NCBI GenBank assembly: GCA_949285455.1
Contig: CASDXP010000001.1
Location: 62,001-126,000 of the forward strand
Direction: 5' to 3'
From: an uncultured bacterium
GTDB taxonomy: Bacteria > Bacillota_I > Bacilli_A > RFN20 > CAG-826
Length of the DNA: 64,000 bases
A model generated the notes under the pieces. The model had not been told where the DNA came from. It searched no databases and saw only the letters and a list, made by a program, of their open reading frames with translations. The position numbers and the translations under genes are program-made. Below, in pieces: positions 2,025 through 58,054 of the stretch; position 1 is the first letter of the stretch; every line of letters begins with the position of its first letter.

Positions 2025-3128
2025 CTATTTTACTTCGATAGGGTATGGAACTTTTTTAAGACGATGGGAAGTTATTTCTCTTCTACCTTCTTTTGCTTGT
2101 GGATGACCATCTAAATTTACTAAATCACCAGTGAAACCACAAGTCATATTATTGACAAAATATGTACCAACACCATAGGTGTCAACTGGTACTCCTTCCT
2201 TCGTCCATTCATCAATTTTTTCTTTTGAAAAGGAACTAGAAACGATAATTTTGACGTGATTAAATCCTTCGTTATCTAAAGCTTCTCTTAAAACATAAAT
2301 TAATTGCTTACAAACGCCATGTGGATCAAAGCCTGACGTATCTTTGTCATCGAAATAATGATCGATGAGAGATTTTGAAGTGTCGACTCTCACAGCATTA
2401 AGTTTATCTTTTAAATGTCTTGCTAATAGCAAAGAATCTTTCACTACATCATTATGATAATCAATTAGGGCAGTCAATTTTTCATCTGGATAAGCTTTTA
2501 AATATGCTTCGCTTGCTTTGATGATATCACCGCCACAAATTTCAATTAAAGCATGTGGCATCGTACCGCTACCTTTTCCACCCCACCATAAGCCTTGTGC
2601 ATCTGTAGAAACTTTTGTAATACCACCAACGTAAGTTGCATAGCCATCACCAACTTGCGTCAAATAATCATCTTGCCTATCCGCCATGGAAAATACATTT
2701 GTCCCTCTTGCGGCTAAGACGACTTCGTGCACATTCGTGGCGACGCTCGTACGTCTTGCTAAAATACCATCGATTAACGATTCGAGATAACCGAAGTCTT
2801 CATAACGGCCTTTAATCTTTAAAACTGGTTCATTCGCACTGATGATATCACCATCTTCTAATGCATAAATTTCTAAATCTTCTGGATGCTTAGCGAAAGT
2901 GTGAACAAGAGCAATCACTTCATCTAAACCGCAGACCATCGCTTGCTCGCGGCGTTGAAAAAATTGCATGGTGACAATATGACCTGGGAGTAAAGATTCG
3001 ACGATATGATGCGATTTTAAAAAATAATTCGCAGAGAAAAAACCATCTTTAATTCTTTCATCAAATTTGAACGTTTTATTCGTTAATCTCGCTAATTTAC
3101 CGCTCTTTTTAAGTTCAATCTCTTCCAT
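2025..3128 (-). CDS. pncB: Nicotinate phosphoribosyltransferase
   Basis: Converts nicotinate and PRPP to nicotinate mononucleotide, the entry step of NAD salvage. Seen: the C-terminal active-site region VDTYGVGTYFVNN, a central WWGGKGSGTMPHA segment, and the VDTSKSL phosphoribosyl-binding stretch. The length is about 367 residues, in the range of short Firmicutes forms. I place the start at the ATG giving MEEIELKK, because AAAGGAAA lies at the right distance upstream. A longer reading from 3170 would start within the M42 gene without a ribosome site. It overlaps the end of the M42 gene by 14 bases. No de novo NAD genes are seen in the window. Confidence 0.93.
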   Translation of the reverse strand: MEEIELKKSGKLARLTNKTFKFDERIKDGFFSANYFLKSHHIVESLLPGHIVTMQFFQRREQAMVCGLDEVIALVHTFAKHPEDLEIYALEDGDIISANEPVLKIKGRYEDFGYLESLIDGILARRTSVATNVHEVVLAARGTNVFSMADRQDDYLTQVGDGYATYVGGITKVSTDAQGLWWGGKGSGTMPHALIEICGGDIIKASEAYLKAYPDEKLTALIDYHNDVVKDSLLLARHLKDKLNAVRVDTSKSLIDHYFDDKDTSGFDPHGVCKQLIYVLREALDNEGFNHVKIIVSSSFSKEKIDEWTKEGVPVDTYGVGTYFVNNMTCGFTGDLVNLDGHPQAKEGRREITSHRLKKVPYPIEVK

Positions 3129-4206
3129 AGACTGTTTCCTTTCGTAATTTTGAAATGACTTCTTTATCAAGTTTTTTAATAAGAGAAATTAAAGAAATTC
3201 TAGCAACTTCATAATCTCTTCCATCGATGATTGAAGAAGGAGAATGAATATTTCTTGCACATAAGCAATGCGATAAAAGTAGCACTCCATCGTAGGCTAA
3301 TTGGACTTTAGAGCCATCAGTCGTTCCAGCAGATTGAAAATATTGATAAGGAAGTTTTAATTCGCTTAACGTATCAATTTGTAAATCTAATAAAACTTTA
3401 TTTGCGATGACTCCCCGATCAAGATAACGAATTAAGACCCCTTCTCCTAATCTACCATTCGCATTTTTATTTCCATCGTAATCATTCGCAGGTGAACAAT
3501 CTAAGATGATGCAAATATCAGGCTTTATCATATGTGACAAAGTAATCGCGCCGCGACAGCCAACTTCTTCTTGGACGGTCGCACCTACGTAAAGATTAAC
3601 ATTTAATCTTTCTTCTAACAAAGCATCTAATAAATCTAAACCTAACGCACAGCCATAACGATTATCGAAAGCCTTGGCAAGATAACGATGTCTTCCAATC
3701 TTTTTAAAACTGCCTTCTTCTACGATCATATCGTTAACGTTAACTCCAGCTTTCGAAGCTTCTTTTGCGCTAGAAAAGCCAAAATCAAAAGTTAAATCTG
3801 AAGATTTGATGTCTTTATTAGGTCCACCGAGATGAGGCGCTAAAGCGGAGACGCTACCATAATATTTCTTATTATTCTTCGTCGTCAAAATAAGACGAGA
3901 ACTAGGAAGTCTAGAAAGGCTAATACCGCCGACAACATTAACGTTAATGAGACCATTTGGTAAAATTTGTTTCACGACAAAACCAACTTCGTCCATATGC
4001 CCGATGACTAGGACTTTAGGTAAACTTTCATCTACTTCTTTTTTATGAGCGACAATTGAACCTAATTCGTCGTATTCGACGACTAAATTACGTTCTAAAT
4101 AAGCTTTTTTTAGATAATTTCTTACTTCATCTTCTCGTCCAGAAATAGCATCAAGCGACGTTAATTCTTTTAAATATTTTACTGATTTTTTATCGATTTT
4201 GATCAT
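3115..4206 (-). CDS. M42-family metallopeptidase (glutamyl aminopeptidase-like)
   Basis: Cytosolic two-metal aminopeptidase of the M42 family, which trims short peptides; the exact residue preference cannot be read from sequence. Expected metal and catalytic motifs are present in order: GHMDEVGFVV (His and Asp), AFDNRYGCALGL (bridging Asp), GATVQEEVGCRGA (Glu pair), ILDCSPANDYDG, and ARNIHSPSS near the C-terminus. At 363 residues it has the normal length. The start has GAGGTAAGTT directly before the ATG. The gene overlaps trmB by 17 bases and pncB by 14, so it is probably translationally coupled in the operon. Confidence 0.92.
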   Translation of the reverse strand: MIKIDKKSVKYLKELTSLDAISGREDEVRNYLKKAYLERNLVVEYDELGSIVAHKKEVDESLPKVLVIGHMDEVGFVVKQILPNGLINVNVVGGISLSRLPSSRLILTTKNNKKYYGSVSALAPHLGGPNKDIKSSDLTFDFGFSSAKEASKAGVNVNDMIVEEGSFKKIGRHRYLAKAFDNRYGCALGLDLLDALLEERLNVNLYVGATVQEEVGCRGAITLSHMIKPDICIILDCSPANDYDGNKNANGRLGEGVLIRYLDRGVIANKVLLDLQIDTLSELKLPYQYFQSAGTTDGSKVQLAYDGVLLLSHCLCARNIHSPSSIIDGRDYEVARISLISLIKKLDKEVISKLRKETVYGRD

Positions 4207-4816
4207 AACTTACCTCAACTTTATACATTTGTTTACCTATCTTCATGTACTTTTCTTCATAGTTTGACATCGGCCCAGAAGAAATTGAATAATTTCTCTC
4301 CAGTGTTAATATCTTAAAACCTTCTTGTTCAAAAGTCATCACACTATCGTCAAAAAGTTCTAAATGATCAGTTTTTAAGATGACTTTACCGCCTGGCTTT
4401 AAAATATTTTTATAAATATCTAAGAATTTTTTAGCTGTCAGTCTCCTTTTATGATGACGAATTTTTGGCCAAGGGTCAGGAAAATTTAAATATATGGCAT
4501 CAAATTTTATATTCGAAGGTAAAACTTCTTCTAAAAGAGAAGCATTACCGATATAAAAATAGACATTAGGAATATTTTCTTCGATGATTTTTTTCATCGC
4601 TATGGCTCCACATGTCTTATTTAATTCTACGCCAACAAAATATGTGTCAATGTATGCTTTAGCCATTCTAAAAAGAAAATCACCCTTGCCCATTCCTATC
4701 TCTAAAATATGACTATGATAATTATTAAAATTATCAACCGCGTTAGGCGAAGTAATCATTCTTTCATCATTCGCTATTAAATATGGTTCTGCCCAAGGTT
4801 TAAATTTTTGTCTCAT
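4190..4816 (-). CDS. trmB: tRNA (guanine-N7-)-methyltransferase
   Basis: Makes m7G46 in the variable loop of tRNAs, using S-adenosylmethionine. The 208 residues include the SAM-binding motif ILEIGMGKGDF near residue 38 and the diagnostic TrmB signature FPDPWPKIRHHKRRLT near residue 112. Its ATG overlaps the stop of the preceding S-component/PepV gene in an ATGA junction, a classic coupling arrangement. It also overlaps the following M42 gene. Nothing is missing from the catalytic core. Confidence 0.97.
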   Translation of the reverse strand: MRQKFKPWAEPYLIANDERMITSPNAVDNFNNYHSHILEIGMGKGDFLFRMAKAYIDTYFVGVELNKTCGAIAMKKIIEENIPNVYFYIGNASLLEEVLPSNIKFDAIYLNFPDPWPKIRHHKRRLTAKKFLDIYKNILKPGGKVILKTDHLELFDDSVMTFEQEGFKILTLERNYSISSGPMSNYEEKYMKIGKQMYKVEVSYDQNR

Positions 4817-6768
4817 AAATCTAACAATTTAAGTAATGCTTCATAATAAATATGCATCGCCTGTTTCATCTCTTCGATATCGTAAACTTCATCCGCTCCA
4901 TGCATACGATAATCTTTATCGGGAAGTGCAGGTCCAAAAGCCACACAATTTTTCACTTCTTTAGCATAGGTTCCTCCACCAATCGCTAATGGTTTAATGT
5001 CTTTTTGACCACTTACATTCTTATAAGCATCAAGTAAAGTTTTTACTAAGGAGCCATTAGGATCAATATATAAAGGTGGAGCGTAACTATCTTCTTTATA
5101 GATAAACCTACGATGCTTTTTAATATTTTTAACAATTTGGTCGTAATTAATTAAATGTGGGTGACGATAATCTATACCGATAGTTATGTTATCATCTTTA
5201 AAAGTCGCTAAGCCTATATTTAAAGAAGTTGCCCCTAATTCTTCATCATGAACGTAAATATCTAAACCTTTACCTTCTTGATCAGCAAGAAGAGAATAAA
5301 GTTCTTTTAAATCTAATTCATCATAATATTCACCGATAGCGTTAATAGCGATTAAAAATGCATTCTTTCCAAGCAAAGGTAAAGAACCATGTGAGGCTTT
5401 TCCTAAAAATAAAATCGTCTTATTATCCAATGAAGAATATTCGATATTTTTCTCATCTAAAAATTTAATAAATTTTTCATCCTCATCATTAAGCTTCACT
5501 ATAGCCTTATCAATACAAATATTAAAAGCATTACCAGCTTCGATGGAAGAAACATTTTTTAAATGCGTTTCTAAACTTAAATAAAAATGTAAGATACCTT
5601 TTTCACTATAAATTAAAGGAAAATCAGCATCAGGAGTAAAAGCGTATTGAGGTTGTTCTTTTCCGAGTGTTTCGAAATAATATTTTAGACAGGAAGAACC
5701 TCTTTCTTCATCCCCGCCGATGACGAGTCTAATTTTGTGATTTTTAATCTTATTTTGTTCTTTTAAAACTTTAAGTACATACATTAATGCGACGAGTGGT
5801 CCTTTATCGTCGATGACCCCACGACCATAGATAAGATTATCGACGCGAGAAAGACTAAAAGGAGGATGATGCCATTCCCCATCTGCACTTACGACATCTA
5901 CGTGAGCAAAAATACCAATTAGTTCTCCTTTTCCACCTACATCAATTTCTAAGACACGATTATCGTAAATCGTCGCTTTATCAAAACCTAATCTTAACGC
6001 TTCTTCTTTCAAGAAGATTAAAGCATCGCTCACTTTTTTTCCATAAGGATGAGCATCGCTAACGCTGGAAGGATCATAAACGCTAGGAATAGCGATGAGT
6101 TTAGAAAGAGCATCTAACATATTTTCTTCTTGTTCTTCGATAAATGTGGGAACTTTTTTCATAGAGATTTTCTTACCTTTCTTCATTTTTAAACGTAATC
6201 TCGACGCTGGTTTCAATAAAGGAATTGAGATGAGCGGCACTAAGACGACCGCTAAAGAAATTTCGACGACACAATTTAAAGTAAATATCGCCGATATAAC
6301 AGCGAAAAATGTCGTATCTTGATCTGGCATAAAAGCGTAAAGCAAGGGGATGACCATAGCGGTATGGAGTAAAGTTAATAGACCGCTTAACACCCCGCTT
6401 AGGACGCTAAAGCCTACTTTATTATGCACTTTATTTCTAATAACTTGAAATAAAATGCCCGCTAACAAACCAAAAACTACACGTGGGAGGACTGAGATCA
6501 AAGGATTGACGAATAAGTAATCAACTACACTTGCAGGCATAGTTAAGGCTTTAAATAAGGAACATAGGCCAAAGGCTAACCCAAAAATTGTTCCTTCGAT
6601 AATGCCAAATAAGAAAGCACCTACTAAGACGATGAGATGGATCGTGGTAAAAGAAATAGGTCCGATAGTGATGAAACCTAAGTTAGGAATAAATGAAAAT
6701 AGAGCAATAATCGCGATGAACATCGCATCGACGCACATACGAAGTATTTTTTTATCGGTTGCGATCAT
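4813..6768 (-). CDS. Fusion: ECF transporter S component (PanT-like) + M20 dipeptidase PepV
   Basis: One continuous reading frame joins two proteins. Residues ~5-190 form about six hydrophobic helices resembling the ECF S-component family PF12822 (ISFTTIHLIVLVGAFLFG, LPRVVFGLLAG), which binds a vitamin for an energy-coupling transporter. After a basic linker, residues ~205-650 are a complete PepV dipeptidase: FAHVDVVSADGEW, GRGVIDDKGP, GGDEERGSS, TPDADFPL and MHGADEVYD carry the metal and catalytic residues. PepV is normally a free cytosolic enzyme. The neighbour coaX makes pantothenate the likeliest ligand (inference). I start at the ATG at 6768; a TTG at 6777 nearer AAAGGA is possible. An internal Met at 6160-6162 with a weak upstream AAAGG could give free PepV. 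Confidence 0.88.
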   Translation of the reverse strand: MIATDKKILRMCVDAMFIAIIALFSFIPNLGFITIGPISFTTIHLIVLVGAFLFGIIEGTIFGLAFGLCSLFKALTMPASVVDYLFVNPLISVLPRVVFGLLAGILFQVIRNKVHNKVGFSVLSGVLSGLLTLLHTAMVIPLLYAFMPDQDTTFFAVISAIFTLNCVVEISLAVVLVPLISIPLLKPASRLRLKMKKGKKISMKKVPTFIEEQEENMLDALSKLIAIPSVYDPSSVSDAHPYGKKVSDALIFLKEEALRLGFDKATIYDNRVLEIDVGGKGELIGIFAHVDVVSADGEWHHPPFSLSRVDNLIYGRGVIDDKGPLVALMYVLKVLKEQNKIKNHKIRLVIGGDEERGSSCLKYYFETLGKEQPQYAFTPDADFPLIYSEKGILHFYLSLETHLKNVSSIEAGNAFNICIDKAIVKLNDEDEKFIKFLDEKNIEYSSLDNKTILFLGKASHGSLPLLGKNAFLIAINAIGEYYDELDLKELYSLLADQEGKGLDIYVHDEELGATSLNIGLATFKDDNITIGIDYRHPHLINYDQIVKNIKKHRRFIYKEDSYAPPLYIDPNGSLVKTLLDAYKNVSGQKDIKPLAIGGGTYAKEVKNCVAFGPALPDKDYRMHGADEVYDIEEMKQAMHIYYEALLKLLDL

Positions 6769-7513
6769 AAATATCAAATAATCCTTTTAATACGAGATGA
6801 TGATCAAATAGATAAGACTTCGGAAGAAGACCTTGTAAGATACTAGAATAACCACCAGTAATAATTTTGTTTAAAGAATAACCTAACTCGTCTTCGATCA
6901 TTTTTGCTAAGCCAGTGATGAGCGCAATGGTTCCATTAACCGCGCCACTATTTAAGCTAGTGACAGTATTTTTACCGATGACATTTTCTGGCTTTTCAAA
7001 GGAAATATCCATAAGTTGCGCGGCTTTTTCTGCTAAAGCATCAAAACTAACCTTCACACCAGGATAGATAATGCAACCGACTAAATCTTCATTTTTATCG
7101 ACCACAATAAATTTTGTCGCAGTGCCTAAATCGATAATTAGTGCCGGCGCTAAATTCATCTTCTTAACTGCTACACCTGCGCATAATAAGTCTTGACCAA
7201 GTTCTTGTGGATGATCAATTTTAATTCTGATACCACTTTTTAAATGCCTTGAAAGCAAGGTCGGGTTCACTTTAAAAACTTTTTCTAAAGCTCTAGCAAT
7301 TCTTTTGGAAATCGAAGGGACGACACTTGCAATATATATTGCTTCGATGTCTTTCGAATCGATATTATCGCTTAAAAGTGAATTGAAACTTAAATAATAT
7401 TCATCGCTAGTTTTCGTTAAAGAAGTATTGAAAAGATAAGTCTTAATAATCTTTCCTTCTTTAAAAATACCTAAATCGATGCAGGTGTTACCAATATCGA
7501 CGCATATGATCAT
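6752..7513 (-). CDS. coaX: Type III pantothenate kinase
   Basis: Phosphorylates pantothenate in the first step of coenzyme A synthesis; type III enzymes are not feedback-inhibited by CoA. The ASKHA-fold motifs are seen: CVDIGNTCIDLGIF at the N-terminus, LGQDLLCAGVAVKKM in the middle, and LIIDLGTATKFIVVD. The length of 253 residues is normal. GGAGGT lies upstream of the ATG, and a minus-strand promoter is visible in the divergent region. It is the first gene of the operon and overlaps the S-component/PepV gene, consistent with paired uptake and phosphorylation of pantothenate. Confidence 0.96.
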   Translation of the reverse strand: MIICVDIGNTCIDLGIFKEGKIIKTYLFNTSLTKTSDEYYLSFNSLLSDNIDSKDIEAIYIASVVPSISKRIARALEKVFKVNPTLLSRHLKSGIRIKIDHPQELGQDLLCAGVAVKKMNLAPALIIDLGTATKFIVVDKNEDLVGCIIYPGVKVSFDALAEKAAQLMDISFEKPENVIGKNTVTSLNSGAVNGTIALITGLAKMIEDELGYSLNKIITGGYSSILQGLLPKSYLFDHHLVLKGLFDIYDRNR

Positions 7514-7566: not shown

Positions 7567-7594
7567 ATTATAAATAATTCAATTTGAATATCAA
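7567..7594 (-). promoter_or_regulatory. Promoter of the coaX-tyrS operon
   Basis: TTGATA (7589-7594, minus strand) and TATAAT (7567-7572) with a 16-base spacer, followed about 30 bases later by the GGAGGT ribosome site of coaX. Its -35 box overlaps by one base the -35 box of the divergent lipoprotein promoter, so the two promoters may compete. Confidence 0.65.
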
Positions 7595-37661: not shown

Positions 37662-39308
37662 ATGTCTTATACTCTTTTGATTGACGGCGAACAAAGAACA
37701 TATGATTCGCCAATGCGATTACTCGATTTATTGTCTGATGAAGACAAAAAGAAATATTATGCTGCACGCATCGATCGTCGCGTTCGACCATTAACGTACG
37801 AAATTAATGAAGACGCAATCGTCACATGGCTCGATTTAAGTGATAGGCAAGCGTGCCAATTTTACGAAAATTCCTTACGTTATTTAATTTGTATGGCATT
37901 TTATCGTCTTTATCCTAAGACAAAAATTAGATTATCATATAACGTTTCACGTTCTATCTTCTTAGAAATTTTAGATAAATCCATCCAAGTAAATAGCCAC
38001 TTAGTGGAAGAACTTAAAGCGAAGATGGAAGAAATTGTTAAAGAAGATTATCCTCTCATCTTAAAAAGATGTAGCAAAGAAGAAATTACTGAAATTTATC
38101 AAAAGGAAGGTTACGAAGATAAAATTGAAATCTTACCGTATCGACCAGAAGAAATTTGCCACTACCACGAATGCGATGGTTATAAAAACTATATGTATGG
38201 ACAACTTGTCCCTTCTACTGGCTACATTTCAAAATGGCAGATGAGACTTTATCTTCCTGGCATTTTATTCCAATATCCACGTTACGAGTCAAAGGGCGAA
38301 ATTCCTCCTTTCCAAGACGCTCCAACGTTTGGTAAAGTTCTAAAAGAAGTACATAATTGGGGGCGTATTGCTGGGGCTGATTCAATCGCTGGCATCAATA
38401 AGCATATCGATAAAGATGGTTCTATTGATTTTATCAATATGTGCGAAGCTAGACACAATAAAATGTTCGTTGAATTAGGCAATCAAATCGAAGAAAATAT
38501 CGATAATATTCGCCTCATTTGTATCGCTGGGCCATCTAGTTCAGGCAAGACGACATTTGCGAATAGACTTAGAACTGAATTACTAAGTCGTGGTATTAGA
38601 CCAATTAGAATTTCTATCGATGACTATTATTTACCACGTAGCCTTGCTCCAAAAGATGAAAATGGCGATCCGGATTTAGAAAGTATCTACGCTTTAGATA
38701 TCGATCTATTCAATAAAAATATGGCTGATTTAATTTCTGGATTAGAAGTTGAATTACCAAAATTTGACTTCATGATTGGAAAAAGAGTTAAAGGTCGTAA
38801 ACTTCGTGTCGCGGCAGATGAGCCAATTATCATCGAAGGTATTCACGCTTTGAATGAAAAACTCACTAATTTAATTCCGAAGCATCAAAAATTTAAAATC
38901 TATATTGCTCCACAAGCTCAAATTAATATCGATAATCATAATCCATTATCGCTCACCGATTTACGTCTTTTAAGACGTATCATCCGTGACAATCGTACGA
39001 GAAACGCTTCCGCTATCGACACAATTAAGATGTGGCCAAGCGTTCGTATGGGCGAATTTAAATGGATTTATGATACGCAAGAAGGCGCTAATTACGTCTT
39101 TAATTCGTTGCTAAGTTATGAAATTTCTGCGATGAAAAAATACGCTATTCCATTACTTAATAACGTCGACCGCAATAGTGAATTCTATCCGATGGTTGAA
39201 AGATTAATTCGTACTTATAAGTTCTTTGAACAAATCGACGATAAATTTATTCCTTGCAATTCACTTATGAGAGAATTTATCGGTGGATCTTGCTACGAAG
39301 GAGAATGA
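37662..39308 (+). CDS. Nucleoside (uridine-type) kinase with N-terminal TGS/SAD domains
   Basis: 548 residues in three parts: an N-terminal TGS-like domain (1-60), a middle region like the second additional domain of threonyl-tRNA synthetase (60-200, with EICHYHECDGYKNYMYGQL), and a C-terminal kinase of the uridine kinase/phosphoribulokinase family. The P-loop is IAGPSSSGKTTFANRL, followed by ISIDDYYLPR and IIIEGIHALNEKL. Such proteins are widespread in Firmicutes and are annotated as nucleoside kinases. The substrate is not fixed by sequence. It has a normal ribosome site and promoter, and overlaps the convergent gene by 16 bases. Confidence 0.88.
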   Translation: MSYTLLIDGEQRTYDSPMRLLDLLSDEDKKKYYAARIDRRVRPLTYEINEDAIVTWLDLSDRQACQFYENSLRYLICMAFYRLYPKTKIRLSYNVSRSIFLEILDKSIQVNSHLVEELKAKMEEIVKEDYPLILKRCSKEEITEIYQKEGYEDKIEILPYRPEEICHYHECDGYKNYMYGQLVPSTGYISKWQMRLYLPGILFQYPRYESKGEIPPFQDAPTFGKVLKEVHNWGRIAGADSIAGINKHIDKDGSIDFINMCEARHNKMFVELGNQIEENIDNIRLICIAGPSSSGKTTFANRLRTELLSRGIRPIRISIDDYYLPRSLAPKDENGDPDLESIYALDIDLFNKNMADLISGLEVELPKFDFMIGKRVKGRKLRVAADEPIIIEGIHALNEKLTNLIPKHQKFKIYIAPQAQINIDNHNPLSLTDLRLLRRIIRDNRTRNASAIDTIKMWPSVRMGEFKWIYDTQEGANYVFNSLLSYEISAMKKYAIPLLNNVDRNSEFYPMVERLIRTYKFFEQIDDKFIPCNSLMREFIGGSCYEGE

Positions 39309-47400: not shown

Positions 47401-49821
47401 ATGAAGAACAAACGTTTACTTTTTATTCCCTTGACGACTACTTTACTAGTGAGTAGCTTTTCTTTTTCTTTTTTCGTTTCACCGACCAAAGCTTCATCAG
47501 CGGCGCAAAGCATTGACGCATCCGATTTAGGTGAAGAAGAAATAAGAACATATTATGAAGGTATCGATAATCTAAGCGGAGACATTTTACTTACTTCACT
47601 TAGCGATATAATTGATGATCACACATCTATTTCATACGACAGTACGTTCGATTGGATGGCTATCACTGATCGAGATTGGATTCAATCTCCACTTAGCGAA
47701 GAAGAATTAGCGAATTATGATTTCTCTAACTTAACAAATGATAATCCTATCATGCATCTTATGTATCGAAATGATAATTATCTTCCTAGCGCTTTAAGAT
47801 ATTACGCTAGCGGAAGTGAAGATCAAAAAAGTTTCGATAGAGAACACGTCTGGGCTCAAACAAGAGGTGGCTTCGATACAAGCAATGGTATGGGCACAGA
47901 TATGCATCATCTTTTCGCTAGCGATAAAATGAATAACCAAAACGGACATGGTAATAGTGATTTTGGTAATGTAGATGAAGTAAGTAGTCAAATCGGAAAT
48001 ACCGATTATAACAATACAGGTAAAACCGGATCACAAAACGGCTCAAGCGTCACGGTCTATGAACCGCACGATGATGTTAAAGGTGATATTGCACGTGCTT
48101 TGTTTTATATGGCTGTAAGATATGATGAGACATTATCTTTAACTAGTGAAATTCAAAATAGTAGCGTCAAAGGCACCATTGGTAACTTAGACGTTTTATT
48201 AGAATGGAATAAAACTGATCCAGTCGACGTTTTTGAAATTCATCGTAACAACTTGATTTACAATAACATTCAGCACAATAGAAATCCTTTCATCGACTTC
48301 CCTAGTTGGGCGGACGCTATATGGGGAAATGAGACCGCTAACGTAAGTGAAGATACGCCTTCTCTTATCGATAACGTCATCGATTTAAGACCTTCGAGGA
48401 ATGGCAGATTAGTGATCGAACACCTACCAAATAAAATAACTTACACCCGTGGCGAAGCCTTAGATGTAACAGGCTTAGTCGTTAGTTACGAGCATGATGG
48501 AACGCGTGAAACTATCACTGATTACGTCTTAAGTATCGAAGATGAATCTATTCTATCTAACCCCGGGAATTATCGTGTTTTCGTCTCTTCTAAACTAGAA
48601 GGTGTCATCTATACGTATTTTGATATTAACGTTACAAATACCCAAGAAGAAACACCTACACAAACAGTCATCTACTCAACTGGCTTTGAAGAAAGCGAAG
48701 GATTTAGCACTGGAACAAATTATCAAGGTAACGTCAAAAGCGGCCCAGAAGGTCAACAATGGAATATTGATGGGAATTTTTCTTCATCAAGTGGTAATAT
48801 CGACGGCGTTTCCGCTAGACTTAGATATTATAAAAATTCAACTAAGTTAAACGAATTAAAAATGGAATTCGACGTATCAAACGTTTCCTCAATTAAATTT
48901 GATACGAAGATGAACGCTAATTTGACTTTAGATGCATTCTATAGTCTAGATAGTGGCGTCACTTACAATTATTTAAAACAAGCTGATGGAAGCGATTTTA
49001 AAAATGTGAAGACGACAAGCGTTCGAACTTACGAACTAGATGTAGCGAATGGAAGTACTAGTGAAACAGTTCGCTTTAAATTCGCTTTAGGCGATGCTTC
49101 ACAAAAACCAAGCAGTGGTAATGCTGAACTAGTAATTGATAATATTAGTATCTATGGAGAAAACTACGCTAGTCCATTTGATGATTTCCTTACAATCAAA
49201 GATTTACCACGTACTTTAACTTACGAAGTAGGCGATACATTTACGAGTGAAAATTTACTTGTCAATCGCTTAAGTTATAGCGCTCCTACTTCTAATTTCT
49301 ACGATTATACTTTATCGATTCAAGATGGTGCACTTTTAACTACATCAGGACAAATTAGAGTAGAAATTAATCCTCTTGATTCTAACATTAAATCCGCTTA
49401 TTTCTACATCACCGTCACCGGTGAAATTAGTGCTGCACAAGCTTTCGCTAATAAACTTAGCGAGTATAAGACATGTCTTGATTACATCGAAGCCTACGAA
49501 AATTTGATCGATGAATATAACGCTTTAAGCGATGCTGATAAAGAAGCATTAAAAGATATCATCATCTACGATTATGATTATCAAGAATATCTTAATAATA
49601 ACAAAAGTTATGATGGCTTAAATCCTACTAGTCAAATTGACGCTCATTCGAAATGGATGCAAATTGTTGCTATGTATGATCGCACTAATCGCGCCACGTG
49701 GATTTCAACTTTATTTAGCAATCCACAGACTTATTTAACTTTACTTTACATCGCTCTTGCTTTAGGAGCAATTACAATTACTATTTACTTTGTAAATAAG
49801 AAACGTAAACAAGTTCGTTAA
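47401..49821 (+). CDS. Surface-anchored endonuclease I family nuclease
   Basis: 806 residues: signal peptide (about 1-31, ending VSPTKASSA), an endonuclease I domain (~80-310), two Ig-like regions (~340-420 and ~590-670) separated by a jelly-roll-like domain (~430-585), a helical stretch (~675-770), and a C-terminal transmembrane helix with basic tail (LTLLYIALALGAITITIYFV, then KKRKQVR). The nuclease motif is intact: FDREHVWAQTRGG with His149, then TDMHHLFASDKMNNQNG with His169-His170. It should cut DNA or RNA outside the cell for nucleotide scavenging. It is transcribed alone, divergent from glpK, and abuts pepP exactly. Confidence 0.9.
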   Translation: MKNKRLLFIPLTTTLLVSSFSFSFFVSPTKASSAAQSIDASDLGEEEIRTYYEGIDNLSGDILLTSLSDIIDDHTSISYDSTFDWMAITDRDWIQSPLSEEELANYDFSNLTNDNPIMHLMYRNDNYLPSALRYYASGSEDQKSFDREHVWAQTRGGFDTSNGMGTDMHHLFASDKMNNQNGHGNSDFGNVDEVSSQIGNTDYNNTGKTGSQNGSSVTVYEPHDDVKGDIARALFYMAVRYDETLSLTSEIQNSSVKGTIGNLDVLLEWNKTDPVDVFEIHRNNLIYNNIQHNRNPFIDFPSWADAIWGNETANVSEDTPSLIDNVIDLRPSRNGRLVIEHLPNKITYTRGEALDVTGLVVSYEHDGTRETITDYVLSIEDESILSNPGNYRVFVSSKLEGVIYTYFDINVTNTQEETPTQTVIYSTGFEESEGFSTGTNYQGNVKSGPEGQQWNIDGNFSSSSGNIDGVSARLRYYKNSTKLNELKMEFDVSNVSSIKFDTKMNANLTLDAFYSLDSGVTYNYLKQADGSDFKNVKTTSVRTYELDVANGSTSETVRFKFALGDASQKPSSGNAELVIDNISIYGENYASPFDDFLTIKDLPRTLTYEVGDTFTSENLLVNRLSYSAPTSNFYDYTLSIQDGALLTTSGQIRVEINPLDSNIKSAYFYITVTGEISAAQAFANKLSEYKTCLDYIEAYENLIDEYNALSDADKEALKDIIIYDYDYQEYLNNNKSYDGLNPTSQIDAHSKWMQIVAMYDRTNRATWISTLFSNPQTYLTLLYIALALGAITITIYFVNKKRKQVR

Positions 49822-51146: not shown

Positions 51147-51737
51147 TTATATGACGATATATTGTTCTTTTTCTAAATTTATTTTCATAAATGATGTTTC
51201 TAATTCATCGATTTCTTTTAAAGTTAAAAAAGAAATTTCAGCACATTCTTCTAAATGTTTTTCTTCTTTGATTTGAATGACTTTTTTAGCTTTTAATTTT
51301 GCTAAATTTTCATAACTTATTAAGCCTTTATAAACATAAGCTTTTTCTTGTCTACCAAAAGATACTTTATCAATCACTAACTTCACCGTATTTAAATACG
51401 TTCTTAATAGTCTAGAAGCACCTAGTAAAGTTCCACCAAAATAACGAACGACGATGATGAGATAACAATTTAAATTTAACTTTTCGCACATCTCTAAAAC
51501 TGGTTTAGCGAAAGTATTATGAGGCTCACCATCCCCACTTGCGTAACTGACATCAAATATTTTATAAGCGTAGCAATAATGTCTTGCATTAGGGTATTTA
51601 ATTTTTATTTCTTCTAATGCTCTTAAGACATCATCTTTCGTTTCAATTGGCTGCAAAACACCAATAAAACGCGATTTTAGCACTTCTAAACATACTTCAA
51701 AATTTTTTGTAGGAACTTTATAGATTTTACTTATCAT
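51147..51737 (-). CDS. yigZ: YigZ/IMPACT family protein
   Basis: 196-residue member of UPF0029/IMPACT. Signature: NARHYCYAYKI, SGDGEPHNTFAKPVL and VRYFGGTLLGASRLLRTY. The family is linked to translation and protein turnover, but its bacterial role is unclear. The ATG overlaps the stop of the giant membrane protein (ATGA), so translation is coupled. Confidence 0.93.
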   Translation of the reverse strand: MISKIYKVPTKNFEVCLEVLKSRFIGVLQPIETKDDVLRALEEIKIKYPNARHYCYAYKIFDVSYASGDGEPHNTFAKPVLEMCEKLNLNCYLIIVVRYFGGTLLGASRLLRTYLNTVKLVIDKVSFGRQEKAYVYKGLISYENLAKLKAKKVIQIKEEKHLEECAEISFLTLKEIDELETSFMKINLEKEQYIVI

Positions 51738-54700
51738 AAAGAATTAATGTGCGAGACTAAATTCGTATAAAAATTATCGACTCCAAATGGATCGAAGAAG
51801 TTTTCTAAAATATTCGATGTCGGATAAGAATTAGCTAATGGTGTAACAAAGTAGGCAAGGTAGAAATAATCAGAATAAAGACTATGACCCATCTTTGCTA
51901 AATTAATGAGGAAAGTTTCATTATAAATGATTGTTTGATTTGTTAAATCAATATTTTCATACATATCAAATAACATACGAATTTCTTCACAAGTTTCAGG
52001 CACTACTAATGTTAGATAATCATCGTACGTTAATGTCTTATATTGTTCATAAGAAGTAGATTCATAATTACCTACTTTCTTAATATCTTCATCGATGATG
52101 TTTTCAAAATATGAGAAGAAATGACGCACGCTAAGATCTAAAGAGACGTAAGCTCTATTGCCTTCATCATCAAACGTCGCATCGAAGATACTTTCTAAAT
52201 TTAATTTATCGAAGCCTAAAATATTTTTAGAAACTTGAATAGCTAATAATTCAGACATATTAGAATAAACATTTAAGAAGAATTTATTGACGCCTCTACC
52301 TTCGCTTCTTCCACTAAAATTAGGCATTGATGAATAAGTGTAGAATTGATGAGCAACATTAGAAACATCGTTATTAAATAACGTAGAACATAACCCGCTT
52401 TCATCGAACATGCGCGCAAAGCCGACGGAGGCGGCATCGTAAGTTACATTCGCATCTTGATAAATTTCATCGAGAAGATTGGAATTGTAGAAAACTTCTA
52501 AAATAGTGTCGAAATGTTTTGAAGTATCAATTAATTCTTCTAAGGTTGAAATGCGTAAATCATCATAAATGGCGGAAGCATCTTCAACATTTATTAAAAC
52601 ATCAAATAAATTCTTTAAATTCGCTAATTCAGCATCACGATATAAAACTTGTGAGATACGGAAATTAGCCATATTTTCATCATTCAATGGATTATCAAAT
52701 AAATCTAATAAAGTATGACCATTAGAGACATTAATACTAATTTCTCCTAATTGATTTTCAATCAATTGAGGAATGACGTTATTCAAAGTATCCACTTCGT
52801 TTAATCTTCCTAAAATAGTGAAAACTTTATCATTCGGATTTTCACCTAATTGAGGTAATAAATTACTTAAAGAATTTAAATTATCGAAGCTCAGATTAGC
52901 GGCGCTAAGATAAGTTCCTACTACATCTAAGAAAGCTTTTAAATCATCTAATTCATCTAACCAATTACCTTCATTTAAACCAGCCGCACTACCTTCAAAA
53001 TTTCTTAGACGATATGCCATATATGTAGAAGCATCATTTGCGACTCCACTATCGTATCTAGCATCGTAATTTAAATGCACTAAGCCGAGATTATCATAGA
53101 CGTTAATCATCGTTTGAATGAAGACTGTATCGCTATTAGAAGAAACGCTACCCGCTTGATGGAAGATTGAACTTTCATAGATGGCTTTTAAGCCAGTGAT
53201 GATATGTTCATTGTTAGCGAGTGAATAAGTCGATAGTTTCGTTAAGTCTAAATCGATAATAACTTTTAATTCATCTAGCATCGTCTTCATGAAATCAAAT
53301 TCACTTTCAGGATATTTAACTTCGTAATTATTACTAGACTTATAATGATAGAAAACATTCGCGCTACTTAAGTCGATACTAAAACCGTTTTGAGCATCAT
53401 CGAATGGATTAGCTAAGACGAATTGATGAATTAAATTAGGTGCACCATCATAGATGACGTTAGAATTGTTCAGGGCGAGCACTAAATCGTAGACAAGCTT
53501 AGTATCGACATTTAAATAATCGATACGATCGATCGACATCGATTCACCATCAGCGATATTAAGTGATTTTAAAATCTTTAAAACATCAAATATTTTGATA
53601 AGTTCTTGTTCTTGATAATTATAATTTGAAGTATCGCTTAACCCATATTTGAAATGTTCATCGATTAAATAATCGGCTTTAGCTAAACCATCCATGTAAA
53701 GGTTAACGTTATGGATATCTTTAGGGGAAGATTCATCATAGATAATAGTTTGCATATCTTCAAGTTCAAGAATGCTCGTCGTAAGCGCTTGGAAGAAGGA
53801 ATCTTCACTACCGCTATTAGGGTTAGGACCGCTACGATGGAAAATATTCGAAGCATTAAGATTTAACATCGTCTCTTCAAATAAATCTAAATCTAAACTG
53901 CTAAGACTCGTATATTTACCTTCATTGATGTAATAAAGGTTTTCAATAATGGCTACTAAATTTTCAATTTCCCCATCTAAATACGGATTATCGCCATTAT
54001 AATAAACGTTTACGCAATCGAAAGATACATCAGGTAAGAAAGATAAACCAGATGTCGTAAGAGTCGCACTACTCATAGCGTTTTCAAGCTCTGAAGGTAA
54101 AATTCTAAAGAACAATCGAGAATCATTTAAAGAGTTTAAGAAATTTGTTAAAGGTAAGACATCGATTTGACCATTTTGATCTAAAGTCGCCCAAAGCCTA
54201 TTTAACGTATCGATTGAAATTTCACCATTGCTATCAGCGACAGGAACAGCGTGAGAAATGACGTTCATCGTCAGCCTAATCTCACCATCTTCACCTAACC
54301 AGCCATCGTGATCAACGCTAACGTCCGCGTGTTTATTTCCGACGCTGATGATAAGTTGTTCGAAACTTTGATTGGGGCCAGCCATCTGTTGTTCATAACC
54401 AATTTTTCTTACAAAATAAGTGATGATCGATTCAAAAGCCGTAAGATTTTCTTCGAGACGTACTTCGCTATCCTTAAATGTATTGAACACTTCAGAATCA
54501 TAGATTCTATTCAATAGTTGTTCGAACGTATCTTTATTTTCATCGATATCAAAAATGTTAAAATCTGGCACGTTACCATCTAAAGATATACCTACTTCTT
54601 TAAAATCGCTAAGGACGTCGACGATCAAATCTAGTTCTTGTTTTCTTCCTTGTTTATCTAATTCTAATAAAACTTCGCTATTAGCGTTCGTCAAATCAAA

Positions 54701-57700
54701 ATCTTCGACGGAAACATGACTGATAAGTTCATCGATGGCATTATAAATAGGTACTCTTAAAATATCGACTTCATTGAATGAATGAATAGCGTTTCTAAGC
54801 AAAGTTTCATCCATTTCATCGCTAAATAAATTTTCAAAAATATTACCGCTTGCATTAGGTAAAGAATCGATAGCGAGATTGATATCGACAAGCATCTTAT
54901 AAATACCATAATTTAAATCGTAACCAGTCTCTAATTCACGGCTCGATAAATCTTTCCACGCTTCTTTATAATTCGCATCTTCGAAATCTTTTTCTATTTC
55001 GCTATAACTCACACCATCAGGATCTGCAAAATAATCGCGATTCGTACCGAGCGAATCCATCGATTGATGTAGTTTATCGTAGATGAAATTAGAGAAGAGG
55101 AATTCTTGGCTTTCTTTTTCTATAAAGAGGCTTGAATCCACTAAATTATCGAGTAATTCTAACACTAATTCGGGTTCAACTTTGAAAATATCAATTTCGT
55201 TAATATTTTGTTCAAATTTACCGATGGTCGTACAAATCCTAGCGAAGACTTCACCTTCTTCCGTCCAATTGATGACGTTTACAAAAGAAATGCCGCTATC
55301 AGGATCGATGATGCCAGAATTGACAAGGTAATAATCGAACGTATCAGCGATGCTAGATTTCGTCACTTCTGATAAATCGATCGCGGCAAAAATATCAGAG
55401 ATACGATAGACTGTTTCAAGTTGTCCAATCGTCTCATTACTTAAAGTTTCACCTTGTAAGGCATCATAGATACCAGTCCCACCGAAGACGCTAAAGAAAT
55501 TGACGATGTAGCCAATTTCACCATCGTAGATTATTTTACCATCACGATTTAAAATGTAATCGCCGTTAAGATGTTTGCTATTTTCCCATTTGGTGACGTT
55601 AAAACGAGAAACGTCGAAGTCAAATTGCGGAACACTATTTTCGTACACTAATTCTAAAACATTGTAGAAATTGTCCGTGCGCATATTTCCAAAGGCATCT
55701 TTCGGATTGAGAATGTTAGAAATGTAAAAAATCTCTAATAAAGATAAAAGTTCTTCTTCATTTTCAGGAATGGAACGTAAAGCCATAGAAATGCTCACTT
55801 CATCTTTTTCCATGAAATTGTTCGAGACGTAAACGACTCCTTCGATGCTAGAGAAAATAAGCGCTAATTCTTCACCGATATGTTCCACTTCCCAATCAAA
55901 ATTTGCTGGACTTAAACCAATCTTAGCTAATGCATTCGTCACATCGGGCGAATCCATAAATCCTTGGATGATATCAGGAACGACAGAACTTAATATTTTT
56001 GAATTATCGATAGTAGGTAAAACATTTTCCATCCCATCGATGAAAGTTTCATCGACGTCGACGATCATTCCTTCTTCATCAAAAATTATCGCTTCACTAT
56101 TCATCGGATCCATGATGTAATCGACGATAGAATCGTATTCATTCATGAGCGATAAAGTATTTAAAAGCGCACCGAACTCCTTTTTGAAGTTATAAAATGC
56201 TCTTTCATCGTTCATCGTATCGATAATATTTTCTAGTTCAACAGTGTCAATATCAATCGTATCGTTCGAAGATAAAGAAGTGACAAGTAAATCTACTAAA
56301 TCATCGATAGCGTATCTAATTAAATCTGAATCGAATAATGCATAATCAGCGTTTTCTAACCTATTACCGTCTTTATCAGTCATGATCGTACGTCCAGCTT
56401 CATCGACTCCAATTGGATTACCATTCGCATCTAATGGTCCGACGAAAATGTAACTTAACGCTTTTGCGTTAACGAACACTAAATCGATAATTTGTTGGCC
56501 TGTCTCATCGATAGCGGCACCATTTCTTACATCTTCTACAAGTTCGCTTACGCTCACTTCTTCTTGATTTTCATTCGGTAGGAACATATCGAGTAAATTT
56601 GGTTCGACTTGATTTAGTTCATAAAGCGAATCGTAGATGATAGCTAAATTTCTTCCCCAATCGATATTTTTATAATCTTCTAGCTCGCTAGGTAGATAAG
56701 TAGCGATATCTTCACCGATTGTTCCGCTAGTGGTTACGCTATAAAGGACGATAGGAATGAGACGAGATAATAATTCGCTATTAGAAATGGATTCGAATAT
56801 ACGCATGTAGTAAGGATAATTTTCTTGCGTCAGCATCGATTGATATAACTCATCGATGTCGATTTGACTAACATCTTTCCAGCCGATAGCCTTACCGTTT
56901 TCATCATATAATACAAAATTATGTAACAAGCCAGAATTGAAGACGTCAGAAACGATAATTTGTAAAGTGTCAATTTCTTCTTGCACATCGAAATTAAAAT
57001 CTTCAATTAAAGAAGTGTCGATGTAATCTTTCATCGCTTCTTGATTTAAACCAATCGCTAAAGCGATAGGAAGAGCGTAAACGATCAAATCTGAACCTGA
57101 TAAAGTTTCTAATAATTGGATGAAGAAATCCGCATTATTTATTAAAGCTGGATCGAATGAAAAACCATCTTCCGTCACTAAGCCATTAGAGATGATCGAG
57201 CCGCCGCCATGACCAATTTGAGCGATGATATCATAGATGCTATCACCTGTCCCTGTATCGGTGAAGAAATCCATGAGCCACGTATCGAAAGCCCATACAC
57301 CATCTTTAGATGTCCAATTAAAAAATACGTTCGCAAATATAGAATTGTTATACGTTGAAATAAAACTATTCATGTACTGAGCGATTTCCGAATCGCTTTC
57401 ACCAGTATTTGTTTGCTGGTAAGCTCTAGAAAAAGTTCCGATGATACTCACAGTAGGAAGCGCACACATCAAGGTGATGACGAGGTATCTTGCGGTATGA
57501 ATTAAACCACCGAGCCATTTTTTTCTTTTCGTTTTGACGACTCTTTTTGAAAAGAAACGTTTGAATACTAAATTCCAAAGAAGAATAGTGAGGAAGCCAC
57601 CGACAGAAATGATGAGTATAGAAGAAATGATAATGGAGAGCAAAGCTAATAGGGAAGCAGCAATGCTCAAAGCATATTCGCTCGCTGCTTGCCCACTTGC

Positions 57701-58054
57701 GACATCGTAGACATTGAAGAAAGCTTCGATATAACTAGAAAGTGTGCCAAATATCGAAGTGATAGTAACATCTAACGAGGCTCCAGTTGAACTATTGGTA
57801 ACAGTGATGACATCTTGGATACCAAAAGCACCTAAAATTGCTTTCGCATCAAATCCACCAATCCAACGTCCGAACATAGGCGCACAAAATAAAGCGATGA
57901 TCGCTAAACCACCCATGAAACAAAATCTAAATAAAGAATTTAATAATCCTCTTTTCCAACCGATGAGAAAGGAAATGAAAAGTCCAAGAAAAAATAAAAC
58001 GAAAAGGACGATGAGAGTAATATTGACGATAAGCCCAAATGTTTCAGGTGTCAT
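51734..58054 (-). CDS. Giant (2106-residue) membrane protein with CvpA-like N-terminus and long repetitive domain
   Basis: A single uninterrupted frame taking a tenth of the window. Residues 1-210 hold about four transmembrane helices; the first part (FLIGWKRGLLNSLF) resembles CvpA-type proteins. The other ~1880 residues are acidic, rich in Asn, Asp, Leu and Ser, and built of degenerate modules around a motif like LLxxLxxSxIF: examples are LLETLSGSDLI, LLDNLVDSSLF, TMLNLNASNIF, GLKAIYESSIF and ILEVFYNSNLL. No enzyme motif or cell-wall anchor was found. The start follows an extended -10 box by six bases without a ribosome site. It may be a surface or envelope-spanning scaffold; function unknown. 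Confidence 0.88.
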   Translation of the reverse strand: MTPETFGLIVNITLIVLFVLFFLGLFISFLIGWKRGLLNSLFRFCFMGGLAIIALFCAPMFGRWIGGFDAKAILGAFGIQDVITVTNSSTGASLDVTITSIFGTLSSYIEAFFNVYDVASGQAASEYALSIAASLLALLSIIISSILIISVGGFLTILLWNLVFKRFFSKRVVKTKRKKWLGGLIHTARYLVITLMCALPTVSIIGTFSRAYQQTNTGESDSEIAQYMNSFISTYNNSIFANVFFNWTSKDGVWAFDTWLMDFFTDTGTGDSIYDIIAQIGHGGGSIISNGLVTEDGFSFDPALINNADFFIQLLETLSGSDLIVYALPIALAIGLNQEAMKDYIDTSLIEDFNFDVQEEIDTLQIIVSDVFNSGLLHNFVLYDENGKAIGWKDVSQIDIDELYQSMLTQENYPYYMRIFESISNSELLSRLIPIVLYSVTTSGTIGEDIATYLPSELEDYKNIDWGRNLAIIYDSLYELNQVEPNLLDMFLPNENQEEVSVSELVEDVRNGAAIDETGQQIIDLVFVNAKALSYIFVGPLDANGNPIGVDEAGRTIMTDKDGNRLENADYALFDSDLIRYAIDDLVDLLVTSLSSNDTIDIDTVELENIIDTMNDERAFYNFKKEFGALLNTLSLMNEYDSIVDYIMDPMNSEAIIFDEEGMIVDVDETFIDGMENVLPTIDNSKILSSVVPDIIQGFMDSPDVTNALAKIGLSPANFDWEVEHIGEELALIFSSIEGVVYVSNNFMEKDEVSISMALRSIPENEEELLSLLEIFYISNILNPKDAFGNMRTDNFYNVLELVYENSVPQFDFDVSRFNVTKWENSKHLNGDYILNRDGKIIYDGEIGYIVNFFSVFGGTGIYDALQGETLSNETIGQLETVYRISDIFAAIDLSEVTKSSIADTFDYYLVNSGIIDPDSGISFVNVINWTEEGEVFARICTTIGKFEQNINEIDIFKVEPELVLELLDNLVDSSLFIEKESQEFLFSNFIYDKLHQSMDSLGTNRDYFADPDGVSYSEIEKDFEDANYKEAWKDLSSRELETGYDLNYGIYKMLVDINLAIDSLPNASGNIFENLFSDEMDETLLRNAIHSFNEVDILRVPIYNAIDELISHVSVEDFDLTNANSEVLLELDKQGRKQELDLIVDVLSDFKEVGISLDGNVPDFNIFDIDENKDTFEQLLNRIYDSEVFNTFKDSEVRLEENLTAFESIITYFVRKIGYEQQMAGPNQSFEQLIISVGNKHADVSVDHDGWLGEDGEIRLTMNVISHAVPVADSNGEISIDTLNRLWATLDQNGQIDVLPLTNFLNSLNDSRLFFRILPSELENAMSSATLTTSGLSFLPDVSFDCVNVYYNGDNPYLDGEIENLVAIIENLYYINEGKYTSLSSLDLDLFEETMLNLNASNIFHRSGPNPNSGSEDSFFQALTTSILELEDMQTIIYDESSPKDIHNVNLYMDGLAKADYLIDEHFKYGLSDTSNYNYQEQELIKIFDVLKILKSLNIADGESMSIDRIDYLNVDTKLVYDLVLALNNSNVIYDGAPNLIHQFVLANPFDDAQNGFSIDLSSANVFYHYKSSNNYEVKYPESEFDFMKTMLDELKVIIDLDLTKLSTYSLANNEHIITGLKAIYESSIFHQAGSVSSNSDTVFIQTMINVYDNLGLVHLNYDARYDSGVANDASTYMAYRLRNFEGSAAGLNEGNWLDELDDLKAFLDVVGTYLSAANLSFDNLNSLSNLLPQLGENPNDKVFTILGRLNEVDTLNNVIPQLIENQLGEISINVSNGHTLLDLFDNPLNDENMANFRISQVLYRDAELANLKNLFDVLINVEDASAIYDDLRISTLEELIDTSKHFDTILEVFYNSNLLDEIYQDANVTYDAASVGFARMFDESGLCSTLFNNDVSNVAHQFYTYSSMPNFSGRSEGRGVNKFFLNVYSNMSELLAIQVSKNILGFDKLNLESIFDATFDDEGNRAYVSLDLSVRHFFSYFENIIDEDIKKVGNYESTSYEQYKTLTYDDYLTLVVPETCEEIRMLFDMYENIDLTNQTIIYNETFLINLAKMGHSLYSDYFYLAYFVTPLANSYPTSNILENFFDPFGVDNFYTNLVSHINSL
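52440..57120 (-). repeat. Degenerate protein repeats within the giant membrane protein
   Basis: At least ten copies of the pattern L-x2-L-x2-S-x-[IVL]-[FLI] occur near residues 319, 425, 778, 975, 1185, 1308, 1402, 1528, 1627 and 1858, each commonly followed by a Pro, Gly or charged loop. Spacings are irregular (about 90-210 residues, or multiples), and the DNA itself is not repetitive, which points to old diverged duplications. Confidence 0.6.

Follow-up and report, generated by a model that had tools for sequence, protein, structure and literature searches.

A PanT-type S component fused in frame to a PepV/Sapep-type dipeptidase beside the pantothenate kinase gene coaX in uncultured Bacilli

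The S component of an ECF transporter must tip over (topple) in the membrane to work. Docking on an ECF module goes with an AxxxA motif, which is absent from the receptor relatives of S components; transport S components are described as ending at helix 6, a generalisation rather than a definition (PMC11109136). In the pantothenate S component PanT of Lactobacillus brevis, residues W64, R95 and N131 are reported to be important for pantothenate binding (PMC7755397). The kinase CoaX is described as accepting only pantothenate, with no support of pantetheine use in B. subtilis (PMC11487621). Among M20 enzymes, the position of PepV D177 distinguishes di- and aminopeptidases, which have Asp, from carboxypeptidases and aminoacylases, which have Glu (PMC6271292). 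The PepV of staphylococci cleaves dipeptides in general, Cys-Gly included (PMC11742315). A search of the open-licence literature returned nothing relevant on fusions of S components with peptidases, and an earlier report in a subscription paper is possible.

The locus described here lies in a window of 64,000 nt, the whole stretch of DNA that was analysed, and coordinates are positions within it. A single intact open frame joins an S component (residues 1-196), an 11-residue hinge and a PepV/Sapep dipeptidase (residues 208-651), in agreement with a preliminary description of this DNA that had reported an S component and a complete M20 PepV domain in one frame (Table 1). Searched separately against Pfam, the two halves match PF12822 and Peptidase_M20 (PF01546), respectively. 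The pairing of the ribosome-binding region is better for a TTG start at 6777 (-6.0 kcal/mol) than for the ATG at 6768 (-4.5 kcal/mol). The gene overlaps the start of trmB as well as the 3' end of coaX, the latter overlap with a type III pantothenate kinase gene having been noticed from the outset. The AlphaFold model of the whole chain (alignment of 32 rows) has a mean pLDDT of 89.9 and displays six membrane helices (TM6 at 164-196), a disordered hinge at 197-203 and the full PepV fold from residue 208; because its pTM is 0.64, it does not fix the placement of the two domains relative to each other. The same open frame is present in two congeners (78% and 65% identity), where synonymous change far exceeds non-synonymous change in both domains, indicating purifying selection, and the linker aligns in frame. 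In the fourth congener, G002, the region of the locus consists of N and is uninformative on the fusion. An assembly artefact or frameshift is ruled out by the fusion frame being open in 20 genomes. An Rfam search of the locus returned no riboswitch and no other RNA, and the plasmid collection holds no full-length match to the fusion.

Table 1. Features of the fusion locus and of related loci. Positions refer to the window unless a locus is named.
Feature	Position	Strand	Basis or remark
PanT-PepV fusion gene	4813..6768	-	651 aa from ATG 6768; 654 aa if TTG 6777 is the start
PanT-type ECF S-component domain, residues 1-196, six TM helices	6181..6768	-	PF12822; phmmer; Foldseek
AxxxA motif, helix 1 (A15, A19), EcfT-docking signature	6712..6726	-	alignment with 4rfs/6zg3
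H135 at the L. brevis PanT N131 position, invariant His in the coaX-linked clade	6364..6366	-	alignment
Linker/hinge, residues 197-207, lysine-rich	6148..6180	-	predicted disorder 197-203; in-frame codon alignment, three congeners
Possible internal ATG for free PepV	6160..6162	-	Met conserved in three congeners
PepV/Sapep-type M20 dipeptidase domain, residues 208-651	4816..6147	-	TIGR01887; 3ki9, 1lfw folds; residue mapping
coaX, type III pantothenate kinase, upstream, overlapping the fusion	6752..7513	-	PF03309 3.4e-53; TIGR00671 189.6 bits, cutoff 58.2
Promoter-like site upstream of coaX, candidate operon promoter	7567..7594	-	11/12 consensus matches only
trmB, tRNA methyltransferase, downstream neighbour	4190..4816	-	PF02390
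M42-family aminopeptidase, downstream neighbour	3115..4206	-	PF05343
Other-subfamily S components	L020:1902-2537; L023:2869-3396; L028:2853-3416; L030:2850-3443		

The S domain is of PanT type. The ECF_trnsprt family (PF12822) covers residues 10-180 (2.3e-17; 63.9 bits, cutoff 30.7), and a phmmer search against the PDB, read up to an E value of 10, matches only 4rfs_S (2.3e-23) and 6zg3_C (1.3e-20). Folded alone, the domain reaches a pTM of 0.87, and Foldseek places this model on 6zg3_C (TM 0.82) and 4rfs_S (TM 0.73), both from ECF-PanT, with E values of about 1e-7; a thiamin S component follows at E 0.02, and PanT alone is significant. The vitamin-transporter S component recognised earlier beside a pantothenate kinase gene can therefore be narrowed, PanT being its sole solved relative by sequence and its sole significant one by fold. 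The AxxxA motif, or a small-residue variant of it, is kept across the fused proteins. Compared with the L. brevis PanT pocket, R95 is kept as R96, W64 is replaced by F and N131 by H. The same holds for the coaX-linked PanT clade, in which the W position is occupied by F or M and the N131 position by an invariant His. In a set of 80 named loci, a single branch (support 92, not starred) separates the His forms from the Asn forms, and coaX is adjacent at 41 of the 46 His loci versus 6 of the 34 Asn loci; pepV lies within 4 kb at 36 loci, all of His type. Pocket and neighbour track imperfectly, the Asn type standing beside coaX at L118, L131, L135, L146, L147 and L148. Because coaX is found with both pocket types, pantothenate would be favoured as what the His type binds as well.

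In the genome of the window, a single EcfA1-EcfA2-EcfT module is encoded, on contig C7, only two PF12822 S components were found, and the fusion is the only PanT-type protein among the proteins found. Profile searches of the draft genomes detected PanC in none of 20 and CoaA in none of 12, so CoA is likely made from imported pantothenate that CoaX phosphorylates, and the gut and rumen carriers of the coaX-panT-pepV cluster are likely pantothenate auxotrophs. The ligand of the S domain is likely pantothenate, a link that is strengthened because the solved relatives are all ECF-PanT, coaX adjoins the gene, and PanC and CoaA were not found in these searches.

The C-terminal domain has the complete equipment of an M20 dipeptidase. 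Peptidase_M20 (PF01546) covers residues 287-646 (3e-24), and the NCBIfam model of Sapep-family dipeptidases (TIGR01887) covers residues 216-645 along nearly its whole length (345.1 bits, cutoff 207.95; model positions 3-447 of 447). Because its score with the PepV equivalog NF005591 (345.6 bits) is below the curated cutoff of 435, the domain is filed as Sapep/PepV-like and not as PepV sensu stricto. In the AlphaFold model it superposes on 3ki9 with a TM score of 0.83 and on 1lfw with 0.82 (by target length). The metal motifs reported earlier are all in place: H87, D89, D119, E153, E154, D177 and H439 of L. delbrueckii PepV correspond to H289, D291, D320, E354, E355, D380 and H623, and the lid residues N217, H269 and R350 to N416, H460 and R535, so that every catalytic, metal and lid residue can be mapped. 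These residues are invariant in the alignment of fused proteins, and no second PepV-type protein was found in the genome. Because Asp380 is accompanied by the full dipeptide-binding set of PepV, the domain is not predicted to hydrolyse pantetheine or pantothenate, the latter an N-acyl amino acid. The preliminary description had suggested that the tethered enzyme processes an imported pantothenate or beta-alanine amide as it enters; this suggestion finds no support, the residue being Asp and not the Glu of aminoacylases, and a role as pantothenate or pantetheine hydrolase is argued against by Asp380 together with the lid residues. Supply of beta-alanine for pantothenate synthesis was likewise considered and rejected, being moot because PanC was found in 0 of 20 genomes.

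The fusion recurs in relatives, where the preliminary description had proposed to look for it. Among the matches listed in a survey of 279 genomes of the order, it is present without internal stops in 20 genomes of six genera (g1, g13, g28, g30, g31 and g50), all from one family of uncultured Bacilli; besides the window and the two congeners, these comprise 17 further genomes in five genera, and one copy runs off the end of its contig. Some g27 genomes with long open frames had also been taken to carry fusions, and there the S gene and pepV are actually split. Outside the family, no fusion-length open frame occurs among the S-component matches listed for 395 genomes class-wide and 392 phylum-wide (overlapping sets). 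The named relatives are metagenome-assembled and entered as 'uncultured Bacilli bacterium', several with rumen or omasum isolate names, and the genomes carrying the fusion seem to come from metagenome assembly. A locus with two separate genes, named earlier as evidence that would speak against the fusion, does occur in other genera and is not found in the genus of the window.

In these other genera of the family, coaX, panT, pepV, trmB and often the M42 gene are separate adjacent genes. In some genera coaX and pepV are present but the S gene between them is missing, and pepV-trmB can also form a block that coaX does not adjoin; the open-licence literature yielded nothing relevant on pepV-trmB operons. 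A different arrangement of these five genes, pepV-trmB-M42-panT-coaX, is seen in further Bacilli such as 'Candidatus Izimaplasma' (L100, L122, L175 and similar loci, Izimaplasma-like and from other Bacilli), so the coaX-panT-pepV cluster seems to predate the fusion. Since the S gene and pepV are separate and adjacent in other genera, the fusion can be traced to neighbours in an operon. On a tree of PepV, TrmB and CoaX, the fused/unfused state needs five changes, at least four of them forced by strong branches, a parsimony count in which gains and losses of the fusion are not distinguishable. A tree constrained to a single clade of all fused rows is rejected (AU p 3e-9), which shows that the state changed repeatedly, and because the junctions differ in sequence between genera, several separate fusions are the simplest reading. 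Where the genes are split, S and pepV stand in the same frame at 7 of 22 loci found by the S domain alone, as by chance; an enrichment of in-frame pairs appeared only in loci picked by full-length matches, a biased choice, and was discarded. At least four genomes (L020, L023, L028, L030) encode, in the place between coaX and pepV, an S component that belongs to another subfamily; these proteins have 32-42% mutual identity and weak similarity to PanT, and those of L028 and L030 are without the pocket Arg. L020 and L023 had been read as missing the S gene, which is rejected given these proteins. This other S component may be a second one for pantothenate. As for the promoter-like site upstream of coaX, the number of such sites in the region is not above that in shuffles.

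Further genes of the window deserve mention. A quinolinate/nicotinate phosphoribosyltransferase-like gene (2025-3170, minus strand) directly follows the M42 gene, thus placing a second vitamin-salvage gene beside the cluster. At some distance lie a 2106-aa ORF (51734-58054, minus strand) that has several helices at its N terminus and matches nothing in Pfam at E values up to 0.01, a 548-aa ORF (37662-39308, plus strand) that by eye resembles a nucleoside kinase with an extra N-terminal region, and a secreted 806-aa protein with an Endonuclease I domain (PF04231) and an apparent C-terminal membrane helix (47401-49821, plus strand), possibly serving the use of extracellular DNA.

The account that we consider rather probable is that of a two-function membrane protein, arisen by recurrent fusion of operon neighbours, in which pantothenate uptake and dipeptide hydrolysis proceed side by side. 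The N-terminal six-helix PanT-type S component would bind pantothenate and dock through its AxxxA helix on the single shared ECF module of the cell (EcfA1A2T), and the imported vitamin would feed CoaX, no other pantothenate kinase having been found. The C-terminal domain would hang on the 11-residue hinge, presumably on the cytosolic side, and act as an ordinary PepV/Sapep dipeptidase that frees amino acids from dipeptides, a specificity predicted from its residues. Any benefit of the fusion would then lie in co-expression or placement at the membrane, and not in vitamin chemistry. Three points weigh against this account. The retention of the fusion in six genera and the loss of a usable internal PepV start in most members of two of them (g30 and g31) suggest more than a neutral accident; C-terminal soluble domains are proposed to limit toppling, so transport by a protein with a PepV tail is not guaranteed (PMC11109136); and two pocket residues differ from Lactobacillus PanT. 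Since the docking motif is kept and no other PanT-type protein was found in the genome, either the S domain topples with a 50-kDa tail or pantothenate enters by another way.

Physical coupling of the two halves appears unlikely. The tethered PepV would move with the toppling S component and act on a substrate delivered with the vitamin, or it would be gated by whether pantothenate occupies the S domain; if gating were true, a vitamin uptake protein would regulate the breakdown of peptides. A more specific form of coupling, in which the S component imports a pantothenate conjugate (pantetheine, or its mixed disulfide with Cys-Gly) and PepV trims it at the exit for CoaX, is improbable. It would accord with the selectivity of CoaX for pantothenate and the existence of a cysteine-pantetheine mixed disulfide in complex medium (PMC11487621), with the cleavage of a bulky Cys-Gly S-conjugate by PepV (PMC11742315), with the 0 of 12 genomes positive for CoaA and with the altered S pocket of the coaX-linked clade. 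However, the PepV residues are those of a dipeptidase that needs a free N terminus and a C-terminal carboxylate, with Asp and not Glu at the D177 site (PMC6271292), and trimming of Gly leaves pantetheine, whose use by CoaX is not expected; moreover, the same PepV is kept in genomes that have coaX and no S gene at the locus.

Equally doubtful is a joint supply of CoA building blocks, in which PanT brings in pantothenate and PepV frees cysteine from Cys-Gly or further Cys dipeptides, both for CoaX and CoaBC. PepV of S. hominis cleaves Cys-Gly with a kcat of 405 per s (PMC11742315), and coaX and pepV stay neighbours where the S gene is absent, but no preference of this general dipeptidase for Cys-Gly is known, and the pepV-trmB block is also present without an adjacent coaX.

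The number of products bears on the separate possibility that an internal start also makes free PepV, the fusion being a minor or regulatory form. For the window, the preliminary description had proposed both fused and free PepV from a start at 6162. The upstream pairing with the 16S tail is -4.0 kcal/mol there, and 85% of synonymous shuffles are as good, so the proposal is unsupported in the window. Strong internal sites with a start codon do exist elsewhere: uncorrected for the 20 tests made, the fraction of shuffles as good is 0.005 in G003, 0.015 in G155, 0.028 in G125, 0.037 in G154 and 0.048 in G121. In g30 and g31, however, the junction lacks a start codon in six of the seven members and offers only a weak GTG in the seventh, and the fusion is probably the sole source of PepV in these. 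Mixed products have a low probability.

Very improbable is a receptor-like protein whose S domain no longer topples and anchors PepV, perhaps regulating it by pantothenate as in 5TMR histidine kinases: S components are described as ending at helix 6, and the C-terminal soluble domains of receptors are proposed to limit toppling (PMC11109136), but the fused proteins keep AxxxA or its small-residue variant, and with the fusion as the only PanT-type protein found and PanC not found in the profile searches, another route for pantothenate would be needed.

The fusion offers a natural test of whether a C-terminal domain blocks the toppling of an S component. It further points to a group of PanT proteins whose pocket has changed (F/M-R-H) and which is tied to CoaX, and it draws attention to the conservation of the coaX-panT-pepV cluster in gut and rumen bacteria that are likely pantothenate auxotrophs.

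Compared with PanT of ECF-PanT (L. brevis 4RFS, L. delbrueckii 6ZG3), the S domain shares the six-helix fold, sequence similarity, AxxxA, the equivalent of R95 and the setting of a pantothenate auxotroph. Unlike PanT, the fusion clade has F for W64, H for N131, a PepV domain at the C terminus and coaX as neighbour. By function, PanU (YhfU) of B. subtilis is also close. The hydrolase half resembles the M20A dipeptidases PepV (L. delbrueckii 1LFW) and Sapep/SACOL1801 (S. aureus 3KHX/3KI9) in its full-length domain with lid and in the presence of all metal, catalytic and substrate-binding residues; in contrast to these enzymes, it is predicted to be tethered to the membrane by the N-terminal S component. 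BtuM, an S component reported to decyanate its ligand B12 (PMC6072759), also joins a vitamin uptake protein with chemistry; it acts through a cysteine of the binding site, whereas the fusion has a separate hydrolase domain and vitamin chemistry is not indicated. The 5TMR sensor histidine kinases and other receptors with the S fold likewise continue after helix 6 into a cytosolic soluble domain (PMC11109136), but the fusion has no H0 helix, keeps AxxxA and carries an enzymatic PepV instead of a signalling domain. The PepV domain thus follows helix 6 where S components are described as ending, and a joined state that changed several times within one family with the docking motif kept is unexpected from that description.
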